64,000 nt of DNA from Opitutus terrae PB90-1 (GTDB lineage Bacteria > Verrucomicrobiota > Verrucomicrobiia > Opitutales > Opitutaceae), in contig NC_010571.1 in the NCBI RefSeq assembly GCF_000019965.1, positions 5,217,001-5,281,000 on the forward strand, given 5' to 3'. Shown piece by piece: positions 5,878 through 41,625 of the stretch. The notes below the pieces were generated by a model, which saw nothing but the letters and a program-made list of their open reading frames with translations, did not search any database and had not been told where the DNA came from. Position 1 is the first letter of the stretch, and the number at the start of each line of letters is the position of its first letter. Made by a program: the position numbers and the translations under genes.

Positions 5878-5909
5878 TGTAGGCGGGATCTCCCACCCCC
5901 GCCCTACAA
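5878..5909. repeat. Short GTAGGGC-family palindromic repeat
   Basis: TTGTAGGCGGGATCTCCC is followed by CCCCGCCCTACAA, giving an imperfect 32-base inverted repeat. It is a shorter relative of the element at 691 and sits in the 183-base gap before the phosphatase gene. Confidence 0.65.
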
Positions 5910-36549: not shown

Positions 36550-39500
36550 TCACCGGAAATCGTGCGAGGTCTGCGTCGGCAACTCGGCCAGGTTCAACGC
36601 CTCGATCGTCTCCGCCTTCACGTGAATCACGCCGCGATCGCTCTGCATCCGCCCCACGATGCACAAGGCCGGTTCCTCGTTGATCGTCATCCGCCGTTGC
36701 TCGAACAGATCGGGATAAACGACCACGTTCGCGATGCCCGTCTCGTCCTCGAGCGACACGAACACGAACCCCTTGGCCGTGCCCGGCCGCTGCCGGCAGA
36801 TTACGCTGCCGGCCACTTTCACGCGCTCGCCGTCACGGCCGAGCGGCAGGTCGGCCGCGCGCCACACGTCCGGCAGCCGCTCGCGCACGAGCGCCATCGG
36901 ATGCGTGCCCACCGTCAGGTTCATCCCGCGAAAGTCCGCGTGCATCCGCTCCGCCGGCGTCATCGGCGCGAGCGGCGTAGCTGTGCGTGGCATGAGCGTC
37001 CCGCCCATGTCGGTCGATTCGGGCATCCGTTTCGTGATAATCTGTCGATCTTCCTTTGTTGTGTCACCCGGAGTCGACTCCACGGGCGAGACGCCCGTGC
37101 CACTGCTCTCCTGCCCTGCCTGTTGCAGCAATGTCTCCTCGGCCGACCACGCCGCCTCGACCTGCCACAGCGCCGCACGACGATGGCTCGCCAGCGTGCG
37201 CAACGCTCCGACCGCCGCCAGCGCCCGTCGCTCGGCCGCCGAGAAGCTTGTCCGTGCCAGCCAGTCATCGATCGACGTGAACGCCCGCGCAGCACGCTGG
37301 GCCAGCATCGCGCGCACGTTCGCTTCGCGCAGGCCCTTCACATAGCGCAGCCCGATCCGGATCGTGTCGTCCGCCTCCACCGTGCACTCCCAGCTGGACC
37401 GCTGCACGCACCCGGCCTTGACCTTCAGTCCGTGCCGCCGCGCGTCCTGGATCAGCGTCGCCGGCGAGTAAAACCCCATCGGCTGGTTGTTGAGCAGGCT
37501 TGCAGTGAACTCCGCTGGCCGATGCACCTTCAGCCAGGTGCTTGCATACGCCAGCAGCGCGAACGAGATCGCGTGGCTCTCGGGAAAGCCATACCCCGCA
37601 AACGTCGTCGACGACTCGAGCACCTTCTGCACCACCGCCTCGCTGTGGCCGCGCGCGCGCATCCCGAGCTGCAATTGCTCCACCACTTTCCTCAGCCGCG
37701 CGGTGTTGCGATTGAACCCAAACGCCCGCCGTAGCTCCTCCGCCTGCGCACCGCTGAACCCCGCCAGCACCATCGCCGTCTCCAACATCTGTTCTTGAAA
37801 CAGGATCACCCCCCACGTCCGCTCGAGAATCGGCTTCATCAGGTGCTCCACGCTCTCATCGAGATAAACGACCTTCTCCTCGCCGGCGCGGCGTTTGATC
37901 AGCGGATGCGACACCCGGCCCGCGATCGGTCCGGGCCGCACGATGGAGACGGCGATCGCCACGTCGTAAAAGTTCTGCGGCTGCAGCCGCGGCAGCGTCG
38001 CCTGTTGCGCGCGGCTCTCCACCTGGAACACGCCGATCGTATCCGCGCGTCGGATCGTGGCCAGGGTCTCCGGATCTTCCGGCGGCACCGTGTGCAGCGT
38101 CAGCGGCTCTCCGCGTTGCGTGCAAAGCGCGAACGCGTCCTGCAGCACCGCCATCATCCCCAGACCGAGGAAATCGACTTTCACCAGGCCCAGTTCCTCG
38201 CAGTCGTCCTTGTCCCACTGCACCACGCGCCGGCCTTCCATCGACGCGTTCTCGATCGGCACGACGCGATCGAGCCGGTTGGGACAAAACACCATTCCCC
38301 CCGAGTGCTGACCGAGATGCCGTGGCAGCCCCTGCATCTGCCGATACAACGCCAGCATCGCCGGCAACCGTGGATGCCCGCCCGGAAGCCCTGACAGTTT
38401 CACCTGCTGCGCAAGATCGAGCGTGTGCGGAAAATCGCCGTTCGCATAAAGCGCCGAGAACCGGTCGAGCACGTCCCCCGGCAGTCCGAGCACTTTGCCA
38501 ATCTCGCGCGCCGCGCTGCGACCGCGATACGTGATCACGTTCGCCACCATCGCCGCGCCGCGCGGCGCGTAACGTTGGTAGATTTCCTGGATCACCGACT
38601 CGCGCAAATCGCCGCTCGGCAGGTCGAGATCGATGTCGGGCCATGAGGGATGCCCATCCTTGCCGACGCGGCCTTCGCTCAAGAACCGCTCGAAGAGGAG
38701 CCGGTAGCGCAGTGGATTCACCGCGGTAATCCCGAGCGCGTAGCACACCGCGCTGTTCGCCGCCGAGCCGCGGCCCTGGATCAGGATCCCCCGCTGGTGG
38801 CACCACTGGCAGATATCCCAGACGATCAGGAAATACCCGGGGAATCCCAGCTTGTTGATCATCGCCAGTTCGCGGTCGAGCTGCGCGCGCAGCTTCGGCG
38901 TGAGCTCGCCGATCCGTTCGCGGGCGCCCGCATATGTCTGCTCGCGCAGCACGGACTCCATCGTCTCGCCGGGCCCGACCGGAAAATCCGGGAAACGGTA
39001 ATCGAGGTTCTGCAGCGTGAAATCCAGCCGCTCCGCGAGCCGGAGGCTGTTCACCACCGCCTCGGGATAATCCTGAAATAACTCGGCCATCGCGCGGCCC
39101 GAGCGCAGATGCCGCTCCGCGTTGGGCGAAAGCAGCCGGCCCGCCGCGTCGAGCGTGGTGTGTTCGCGCAAACACGTGAACACGTCCGCGATCGGCCGCT
39201 CCGCGCGCGTGGCGTAGCGCACCCCTCCGGTCGCGAGCAGCGGCAATTGCCGCGCCGCAGCGAGATCAGCGAGAAAGCACAGCGCCGTGTCCTCGCCGCG
39301 CTGCCGGCGCCGCTGCAGTTCGACGTAAAGCCGGTCCGCTCCGAAGATCGTCTGCAGCCGCGCGGCGACTGCCGCCGCGGCGTCGGCGCCGCGGTTCCGC
39401 CACGCGCTCAACACCGGCCCGTCCTCATCGCCGGTCAGCGCGATCAGCCCTTCCGCGTGCTCCGCCAGCTCGCGCCACGTCGCGAAGCAGGGTCGCTTCC

Positions 39501-39882
39501 GCGCCCGCGGATCCTCGTGGCTGTCCGCCGGCGTGACCAACGGATGCTCGCGCCGCCACGCCTCCACCACCGCCGCCTCGCGCGGCTCGAGTTTCGCCGT
39601 GCTGATTAGTCGGCAGAGATTCGCATAGCCCGTGCCGTTCGTCACGAGCAGCGGCAGCGCGGTGCCGTCCTCCAGCGTCACCTCCGCGCCGACGATGGCG
39701 CGCAACTGCAATTCCCGCGCAGCCTGATACAGCCGCGCCGCCGCATACACGCCGTCGCGATCGGCGATCGCCAGAGCCGGCAGTCCCAGCCGCGCCGCCT
39801 CCGCGGCCAGGTCCTCCGGCTGCGACGCTCCGCGCAGAAAACTGAACGCGCTGCTCGCGTGCAGCTCGACGTAATCGCTCAT
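36550..39882 (-). CDS. dnaE2: Error-prone DNA polymerase III alpha-like subunit
   Basis: A 1110-residue C-family polymerase of the DnaE2/ImuC type. The N-terminal PHP domain starts YVELHASSAFSFLRGAS; the palm carries GRGSAANSAVCYALGIT and the metal-binding WPDIDLDLPSGD; a C-terminal OB fold begins about residue 1000 and lacks the long tau-binding tail of DnaE1. Such polymerases bypass lesions together with ImuA and ImuB, both encoded just upstream. Start ATG 39882; ATG 39900 would add six residues. The flanking inverted-repeat arrays separate it from both neighbours. Confidence 0.96.
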   Translation of the reverse strand: MSDYVELHASSAFSFLRGASQPEDLAAEAARLGLPALAIADRDGVYAAARLYQAARELQLRAIVGAEVTLEDGTALPLLVTNGTGYANLCRLISTAKLEPREAAVVEAWRREHPLVTPADSHEDPRARKRPCFATWRELAEHAEGLIALTGDEDGPVLSAWRNRGADAAAAVAARLQTIFGADRLYVELQRRRQRGEDTALCFLADLAAARQLPLLATGGVRYATRAERPIADVFTCLREHTTLDAAGRLLSPNAERHLRSGRAMAELFQDYPEAVVNSLRLAERLDFTLQNLDYRFPDFPVGPGETMESVLREQTYAGARERIGELTPKLRAQLDRELAMINKLGFPGYFLIVWDICQWCHQRGILIQGRGSAANSAVCYALGITAVNPLRYRLLFERFLSEGRVGKDGHPSWPDIDLDLPSGDLRESVIQEIYQRYAPRGAAMVANVITYRGRSAAREIGKVLGLPGDVLDRFSALYANGDFPHTLDLAQQVKLSGLPGGHPRLPAMLALYRQMQGLPRHLGQHSGGMVFCPNRLDRVVPIENASMEGRRVVQWDKDDCEELGLVKVDFLGLGMMAVLQDAFALCTQRGEPLTLHTVPPEDPETLATIRRADTIGVFQVESRAQQATLPRLQPQNFYDVAIAVSIVRPGPIAGRVSHPLIKRRAGEEKVVYLDESVEHLMKPILERTWGVILFQEQMLETAMVLAGFSGAQAEELRRAFGFNRNTARLRKVVEQLQLGMRARGHSEAVVQKVLESSTTFAGYGFPESHAISFALLAYASTWLKVHRPAEFTASLLNNQPMGFYSPATLIQDARRHGLKVKAGCVQRSSWECTVEADDTIRIGLRYVKGLREANVRAMLAQRAARAFTSIDDWLARTSFSAAERRALAAVGALRTLASHRRAALWQVEAAWSAEETLLQQAGQESSGTGVSPVESTPGDTTKEDRQIITKRMPESTDMGGTLMPRTATPLAPMTPAERMHADFRGMNLTVGTHPMALVRERLPDVWRAADLPLGRDGERVKVAGSVICRQRPGTAKGFVFVSLEDETGIANVVVYPDLFEQRRMTINEEPALCIVGRMQSDRGVIHVKAETIEALNLAELPTQTSHDFR

Positions 39883-39908
39883 CACGCCCACCTCCGCCAT
39901 TTCTCCTC

Positions 39909-40022
39909 CTCGTTCTCTTTCTCGTTCTCGTTCTCATTCTCTTTCTCGTTCTCGTTCGTCAGGAAACGAGCACTCCGGTCTCCCGCCTGCGGCACGAACG
40001 GGAGAACGAGAAAGAGAACGAG
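39909..40022. repeat. TTCTCGTTCTC inverted-repeat array between imuB and dnaE2
   Basis: Perfect 21-bp arms (pyrimidine 39909-39929, purine 40002-40022) enclose 72 bases with more pyrimidine repeats. It fills most of the 162-base gap and overlaps the region where the dnaE2 ribosome-binding site would lie; the minus-strand purine-rich arm lies nearer imuB. Confidence 0.88.
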
Positions 40023-40044: not shown

Positions 40045-41625
40045 TTAGTCATACTCCCCCTCCACGAACCAGCCTTCGCGCGTACGCAGCAACCGGTAGA
40101 GTCCGCCCGTCTCGAATTCCACATCCCACTCCTCGCGGGCCCACCGGCGCGTGCCATCCCACCATTCACCCGAGCCGCGCCACGGCCCCGCCACGGCTTG
40201 CACGGCGCCCGCCAGCGTCGAAGTCCACACAAACGCTGGCGCCGCCCCGGCGAGTTCCACGGTCGCGCGCAGCAGCGTACGATACCGGCGCAGCGGCAGC
40301 CCGCCCGGCGGATGCACCGCTTCGCGCGTGACCGGCGGCACGACGTTCGCCGGCACAGTGAGCGTCACCGCGTCCGGTCGATGCGTATCTGCGACCACCG
40401 GCGTGCCGATTCGATCCGCCCCCACCACCGCCGCGACGCGCCCCAAGGTTTCGGCAAATCCGTGCGGATCGCGCAGCGCGCTGTCGAACAGCCCGTGCTG
40501 CCGCGTCAGCGGCCGCACCGGCCGGCACTCCAGCCGCAGTCCGCGGACCGTCGCAGCGGTGTGCAGCGTTTCCAGATGCGTGTGCAGCACACGAAACAGG
40601 ATTTCCTCCTGCGCCGTCGGTTCCGGCAGTCGGAAATCACGCGCGTGCGCCGTCTCATCGCTCAACGACAGCGTGAGCGTCAGCTCCCCGGCGACGAAGC
40701 CCGCGTTGCGCAGCTCCAGCGCGAGCCGGTCGATAAACCGCCGCAGCACGAACAGCAGCGGTTCGAGCGTTTCCACCTCGTGCTCCAGCGTCAGCTCGGC
40801 GGCGAAGCGCTGCGTGGGCGCGATCAGCCGCAACGGCCGCGTCACCTCGCCCGCTGCGCGTTCCCACAACGCGAGCCCCGCGGGCCCGAGTCGCTGTGTC
40901 ACGTCCGCCTTCGTCAGCGCCGTCAGCTCGCCCAACGTGCGAATGCCCCAGCCGGCCAGGATCTCCGCCGTTTCCGGCAGCGGCTCCGCCACCGCCAGCG
41001 GCAGATCACGCAGAAACATGCGTTCGGTGCCCGGAGCAAGGTGAACAATTTCATTCCGTAGCGGCAGGCCGCTGCCTCCGAGCAGGTAGGGCGAGCCGTC
41101 CTCAGCGAGCCGCTGGAGCTCACGGCTCGGCGAGACGCCTCGCCCTACCCGCGCAGCGGAATTGTGATATTGTCCGAACCGCGCCGCATACAGCGCCAGC
41201 AGCGGCGTCGCAGCCAACCCCGCGGTCGCGACGAGCCCGAGTCCATGCAGTTGCGTCACCGCGGCGTGCAGTGCCGGCACACGACGTTCCTCCGCCAACC
41301 CGCCGACCTGCATCGTGCCCACGCCCGGCGCGGTGTCCTCGACGTGCGGCGAGATGGAAAACGCCGCCGCGAGCAGTGCCGCACGCGCTTCGGTCTCCGC
41401 GGCAGGATTCGCGTTGCGCAACGTGATCCCGGCACAACGTGCCATCGCCTGCGCGGCCGTCAGCCCCGCTTCGACTCCGCTCGCCCGCGCTTCCGGCGTG
41501 CATGCCACGATGGCCGGCGGCCGGAGGGTCTCGTCCAGCAATCCCACGGGCCGGCCGACGAGCTCGCGTTCGAGCCGCAACACGGCCTGCAGGGCAAAAT
41601 CGGAAAGATGGAGAACGGCGAACAT
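40045..41625 (-). CDS. imuB: ImuB-like inactive Y-family polymerase protein
   Basis: A 526-residue Y-family-like protein. The N-terminus FAVLHLSDFALQAVLRLER aligns with the start of DinB but lacks the catalytic acidic residues (DinB has DMDAFFASVE), the ImuB hallmark. The little-finger region and the C-terminal tail (ARRWAREEWDVEFETGGLYRLLRTREGWFVEGEYD) match ImuB, which links ImuA/DnaE2 to the beta clamp. Residues about 159-181 (RVGRGVSPSRELQRLAEDG) are encoded by an inserted palindromic repeat (41085-41149). Follows imuA by 245 bases, longer than usual for this operon. Confidence 0.9.
   Translation of the reverse strand: MFAVLHLSDFALQAVLRLERELVGRPVGLLDETLRPPAIVACTPEARASGVEAGLTAAQAMARCAGITLRNANPAAETEARAALLAAAFSISPHVEDTAPGVGTMQVGGLAEERRVPALHAAVTQLHGLGLVATAGLAATPLLALYAARFGQYHNSAARVGRGVSPSRELQRLAEDGSPYLLGGSGLPLRNEIVHLAPGTERMFLRDLPLAVAEPLPETAEILAGWGIRTLGELTALTKADVTQRLGPAGLALWERAAGEVTRPLRLIAPTQRFAAELTLEHEVETLEPLLFVLRRFIDRLALELRNAGFVAGELTLTLSLSDETAHARDFRLPEPTAQEEILFRVLHTHLETLHTAATVRGLRLECRPVRPLTRQHGLFDSALRDPHGFAETLGRVAAVVGADRIGTPVVADTHRPDAVTLTVPANVVPPVTREAVHPPGGLPLRRYRTLLRATVELAGAAPAFVWTSTLAGAVQAVAGPWRGSGEWWDGTRRWAREEWDVEFETGGLYRLLRTREGWFVEGEYD
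41085..41149. repeat. Complete GTAGGGC palindromic repeat inside imuB
   Basis: GGTAGGGCGAGCCGTC at the left and CGCCCTACC at the right bound a 65-base element with inner hairpin CGAGCCG...CGGCTCG. It is a full copy of the intergenic repeat family, yet is read through in frame by imuB with no stop codon. Confidence 0.82.

Follow-up and report, generated by a model that had tools for sequence, protein, structure and literature searches.

Repeats of unrelated families recur in a loop of ImuB and in a loop of DnaE2 in Opitutus terrae and its relatives

The imuB gene of Opitutus terrae contains a GTAG-class REP dimer (REPIN), as its GTAG tag, hairpins, inverted pair of halves and multiple copies in the genome show. 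The dimer lies in a loop of ImuB that varies greatly in length among relatives, and repeats of several unrelated families appear to have accumulated at this loop in many Opitutaceae, as well as in one loop of DnaE2. Most probably, repeats of the RAYT type insert at many places and persist in those genes whose proteins can accommodate them, and the loss of catalysis freed the ImuB loop to take them up. The features of the window, the whole stretch of 64,000 nucleotides that was analysed, are collected in Table 1.

Table 1. Features of the imuB–dnaE2 region, with positions counted from the first nucleotide of the window
Feature	Position	Strand	Description and basis
imuB	40045..41625	-	526 aa, ImuB-type homologue of Y-family polymerases; ORF, Pfam and fold matches to Pol IV/Dpo4
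Hypervariable ImuB loop (residues 151-203)	41017..41175	-	Alignment of 97 ImuBs; low pLDDT at residues 161-190
REPIN-like doublet (inverted GTAG REP halves)	41085..41149	.	Pattern, fold and reading frame; dispersed partial matches in own genome
REP half GTAGGGCGAGCCGTCCTCAGCGAGCCG	41086..41112	+	GTAG foot beside imperfect palindromic stem
REP half GTAGGGCGAGGCGTCTCGCCGAGCCG	41123..41148	-	GTAG foot beside imperfect palindromic stem
dnaE2	36550..39900	-	1116 aa, same cassette as imuB, downstream; ORF and alignment with 18 relatives
Repeat-bearing dnaE2 loop	36961..37125	-	About residues 926-980; palindromic fold; repeat family other than that of imuB

The imuB product matches the Pfam profiles IMS (E 3.2e-11) and IMS_C (E 3e-10). 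The 65-bp element inside the gene starts with GGTAGGGCGAG and ends with CTCGCCCTACC, and both of its hairpins have GTAGGGCGA at the start and GAGCCG at the end. The DNA of positions 41080-41155 has a folding energy of -27.5 kcal/mol, whereas 200 shuffled versions average -17.65 (z -4.26) and none of them is as stable. The element begins at CDS nucleotide 476 (0-based), is open in the frame of imuB and encodes residues 159-181; three of its six frames are open. The original prediction of a 65-base palindromic repeat within imuB, translated without a stop, therefore holds. Its figure of about 22 added residues describes the element correctly and understates the excess of the loop, which is about 41 residues (53 in O. 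terrae against 12 in the closest relatives without an insert). Since 65 bp is not divisible by three, a further insertion or deletion at the site presumably keeps the frame. No target-site duplication of 2 to 8 nt was found at the junction of the element and no empty-site allele of the insert was found, so the insertion event at imuB itself is unobserved. An outer inverted repeat around the REPIN had a score that 78 of 2000 shuffles matched, and is not claimed.

The element had also been equated with others at 691, 5878 and 22735 of the window. They do have a GTAGGG tag and a hairpin plan in common with it; their stem sequences differ, which rules out strict identity, and the copy at 5878-5908 is one short hairpin and not a doublet. 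Across the genome, 14 places carry the doublet pattern GTAGGGCG-N25-55-CGCCCTAC, each on both strands, against 0 for the reversed control, and the half-site GTAGGGC-N14-17-GCCG occurs 356 times (178+178) against 103 (50+53) for its reversed control. With the whole 159-nt imuB loop as query, at least 22 matches were obtained in the own genome, self-matches included. Among the matches listed, the dispersed ones are confined to query positions 22-102 (the element is at 27-91), so the remaining loop DNA is single-copy at that threshold. The same query gave at least 7 matches in one relative's genome (G003) and at least 33 in another (G073), and none among the matches listed in G006, G026, G066 and G121. 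Match counts in these loop-DNA searches are lower bounds, 40 candidates being scored per genome.

Four RAYT-like (REP-associated tyrosine transposase) ORFs are present in the O. terrae genome, two above the NCBIfam cut-off (L054 and L055) and two below it (L053 and L056). The RAYT gene of L054 is flanked at both ends by GTAGGGC REPs (GTAGGGCCGGCG) of a subtype other than that in imuB. No GTAGGGC match was found at the other three RAYT loci, and the imuB subtype was seen beside none of the four. GTAG REPs and REPINs are presumably spread through the genome by RAYT-type Y1/HuH transposases, and the imuB copy would have moved in this way.

At an E-value cut-off of 1e-20, a tblastn-type search detected ImuB in 68 of the 150 genomes of the family. 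The alignment comprises 97 unique ImuBs, including that of O. terrae and some from other phyla (by record titles); 25 partial ImuBs, 23 duplicates and two genomes with C-terminal matches only (G090 and G125) are outside it. Beyond residue 150, 33/97 proteins have a loop of 12 residues, 57 one of 12-16 and 32 one of 24 or more, with a maximum of 88. Two adjacent insertion points in this loop account for 1163 of the 1683 inserted residues over the 17 variable sites listed. The residues of the O. terrae insert, judged by eye over the displayed part of the alignment, recur in none of the 96 other unique ImuBs of this set.

A tree was built from 82 ImuBs with the loop excluded and 15 distant ImuBs dropped; it was built by a quick method, leaves many forks open and has no bootstrap. 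In it the O. terrae protein clusters (support 95) with L035, L036, L043 and L103, whose loops have 12, 12, 12 and 16 residues. At least 14 changes are required for loops of 24 or more residues and at least 6 for GTAG-bearing loops, counts that stand without a shuffled-label comparison and, for the GTAG class, rest on eight loops assigned partly by eye.

The DNA of these loops is diverse. Among relatives, the loop holds a perfect 28-bp inverted repeat with GTAGGGACCG arms (L069), two GTAG palindromes (L030), a GTAG pair (L031), single hairpins (L059 and L099) or a GGGGTCAGG-type element (L046 and L047), and CT/GA-rich tracts are also present. Searched against its own genome, loop DNA gave at least 68 matches in G077, 57 in G016, 47 in G144 and 48 in G115, self and both-strand matches included; the loops of these four genomes thus hold their own dispersed repeats. 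Hairpins with a GTAG or GTGG foot number 10 (all GTAG) in 8,148 nt of loops, against 27 (9 GTAG) in 137,298 nt elsewhere in the genes; one palindrome may count on both strands, and the 10 loop matches come from 5 of the 97 genes. This strict scan misses the O. terrae imuB element, and L023, L033 and L061 were assigned to the GTAG class by eye. An inverted-repeat score above every control window of the same gene was reached by only 7 of the 32 long loops. The palindrome test alone was accordingly rejected as proof that long loops are repeats, and some of the variation in length may have arisen in other ways. Two side observations concern single genes. A Chthoniobacter-labelled ImuB (L141) has a tandem repeat in its loop, translated VDRVDRVD...GVDGVD. 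In another imuB (L081), an GTAGGGCGTGACCGCCGGGCACGCC hairpin lies at nucleotide 60, near the 5' end and outside the loop.

Such recurrence could also arise if the loop DNA were a preferred insertion target, by its sequence, single-strandedness or SOS induction, with tolerance playing no part. The number of changes on the tree and the presence of several unrelated repeats at one point are in keeping with targeting. However, the repeat types differ and include tandem and CT/GA-rich tracts, for which no common transposase is required, and the single junction inspected showed no duplication. We therefore regard targeting as unlikely, and return to tolerance of the loop as the preferred reading.

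The second repeat-bearing loop lies in a neighbouring ORF, which we take to be dnaE2 from its sequence and the gene order. This ORF matches 19 of 20 stretches adjoining imuB in relatives, 18 of them nearly whole (tblastn). Of 20 stretches fetched, L304 (too short) and L295 (no match) were left out, and 19 proteins including that of O. terrae were aligned. The loop has 17-18 aa in 13 of the 19, 25 in one, and 44, 56 (O. terrae), 62, 71 and 111 in the other five. Its repeat has at least 59 matches in the O. terrae genome, self included, and none among the matches listed in two relatives. The ImuB loop of G127 and the DnaE2 loop of G144 are 85% identical over 153 nt. Just upstream of dnaE2, at about 39900-39990, there is a simple-sequence tract, one frame of which reads SFSFSFSF.

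The position of the ImuB loop in the polymerase fold bears on its tolerance. When a profile of ImuBs is aligned to E. coli Pol IV (4irc), the loop falls at NKPNG. In Dpo4, a lysine of this loop touches the incoming nucleotide. In the DinB-type proteins of the family (the 30 best IMS matches), the distance from the NKPNG-type motif to the next conserved F is 11 residues in 28/28 readable loci; L282 and L286 were unreadable, 20 were read by pattern, and L272 and seven more by eye. The structural matches of the ImuB model are Y-family polymerases (Pol IV/Dpo4). In the AlphaFold model, block pLDDT is 96 before the loop, 77 at residues 151-160, 53, 54 and 45 over residues 161-190, and 91 after it. 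A poorly predicted segment between well-predicted parts fits the earlier idea that the insert occupies a surface loop. At the position of the catalytic SxDEA-type motif, O. terrae ImuB reads VEDTAPG (by eye). ImuB is described as catalytically dead in a published passage (PMC6511836).

Rates of substitution were compared between the loop and the rest of the gene in seven pairs, two of which (L030-L033 and L046-L047) fall outside the closer set, their loops being almost saturated and difficult to align. Of the five closer pairs, which have few substitutions in all, four show a loop dN near or above dS, with that of the rest well below it. The values of dN/dS are 0.038/0.029 in the loop against 0.020/0.097 in the rest for L059-L061, and 0.073/0.000 against 0.026/0.123 for L027-L117. 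Two pairs without inserts give 0.152/0.158 against 0.013/0.112 (L075-L076) and 0.099/0.000 against 0.034/0.303 (L084-L085). The fifth pair, L024-L028, has similar ratios in both parts (0.225/0.446 against 0.031/0.071). As substitutions are few, the comparison only leans towards relaxed constraint, which would predate the inserts.

These observations suggest the following course. A REP dimer would have landed in the loop that joins the palm helix of ImuB to the next strand. This loop, of fixed length at NKPNG in Pol IV, may have been released from constraint by a probable loss of catalysis in ImuB, and could then tolerate extra residues; this tolerance would in turn have let unrelated repeat families build up there. 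The imuB insertion itself would be neutral.

Survival in tolerant places also agrees with where REPs are found in the O. terrae genome. The census is a sample of places up to near 2.9 Mb and, beyond 0.86 Mb, covers the plus strand only. From 100 listed places, 91 entered (nine second halves of pairs being omitted), 10 non-palindromic ones were dropped and 3 merged, and 2.7 kb was fetched around each of the remaining 78. Coding was called from an open frame with good codon use on both sides, by a longer-window classifier that calls imuB and dnaE2 correctly. By this criterion, 10 of 78 REP sites lie inside an open coding frame, whereas random points pass at 97/154 in the same loci and at 169/300 in the window. 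Two of the 10 in-frame calls (L224 and L247) look, by eye, like fortuitous matches within native sequence. REPs are thus depleted in genes, where the rare copies are survivors. This is the opposite of the genome-wide excess of in-frame copies that had been proposed as a test. Two sampled proteins (L209, genome 578818, and L255, genome 2232670) have similar flanks and, by eye, a GTAGGGC REP pair at seemingly the same site, which reads VGPALAAGRE...PY.

A broader claim would be that, in the SOS mutasome of Opitutaceae, the ImuB and DnaE2 loops serve as common landing sites at which the genomes' own mobile repeats have repeatedly been made into protein, with fast lineage-specific remodelling that may alter activity; we hold this to be distinctly improbable. 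Also very improbable, in our view, is that the mutasome is altered by the repeats of ImuB and DnaE2, and that these are retained for tuning mutagenesis, a role in line with published speculation on REPs in repair genes (PMC3733652): two proteins of one mutagenesis cassette do carry repeat-bearing loops in the same genome, loops of the two proteins can be closely similar (G127 and G144), and replication and repair genes recur in the passages of that account, but the inserts of relatives differ in sequence and length, more than half of the ImuBs have loops of 12-16 residues, loop dN is raised even in two pairs without inserts, and the other in-frame hosts of the 78-site sample include proteins that by eye seem unrelated to repair. 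Neutral tolerance is therefore the best reading of the ImuB and DnaE2 inserts, ahead of an effect on mutagenesis, and the loss of catalysis would be the reason why the ImuB loop tolerates them.

The ImuB loop is a natural, replicated record of non-coding mobile DNA turning into protein at one defined loop. It comes with built-in controls, namely relatives without inserts, a partly decayed copy (L061 beside L059) and the constant loop of the DinB-type paralogue. With such a record it can be tested whether REPs inside repair genes ride along neutrally in loops that tolerate them or modify mutagenesis. A 2013 survey posed this question without settling it (PMC3733652).

That survey describes intragenic GTAG REPs, of which O. 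terrae has the most, and so contradicts the earlier statement that no such description exists for this type of organism. According to its passages, more than half of the intragenic inserts are dimers or groups encoding 20 to 30 residues, and many hosts are replication and repair genes, including both uvrA genes and the DNA ligase of O. terrae, and DnaE2 genes (PMC3733652). The imuB element resembles these inserts in its GTAG hairpins, its size as a dimer of 20-30 residues and its location inside an ORF; imuB was not found in the main text of the survey, which lists hosts in its Additional file 3. Different REPs occupy about the same site in recB of two Xanthomonas, and apart from this case those passages do not describe a single loop that receives unrelated repeats in a wide range of species (PMC3733652). 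Judged by titles and abstract openings, none of the publications listed by the literature searches describes the repeat-bearing loop.

The element also resembles the REPINs and RAYTs of Pseudomonas, as described in parts of PMC3116915, in being an inverted REP doublet in a genome with RAYT genes; the Pseudomonas REPINs are treated there as extragenic, whereas the O. terrae copy is intragenic. The likeness to Rickettsia palindromic elements that had been pointed out is fair, and the 2013 survey draws the same comparison (PMC3733652): in both cases a palindrome is read in frame inside a conserved protein. The imuB element is of the GTAG class, in contrast to RPE-4 and RPE-6, which passages of the survey place in the CGTC class, RPE-1 being longer by the same description (PMC3733652). 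The imuB copy itself thus belongs to a known kind, the intragenic GTAG REPs, whose new aspect, as far as the literature searches go, is that unrelated repeats recur across the family in a single ImuB loop and a single DnaE2 loop.
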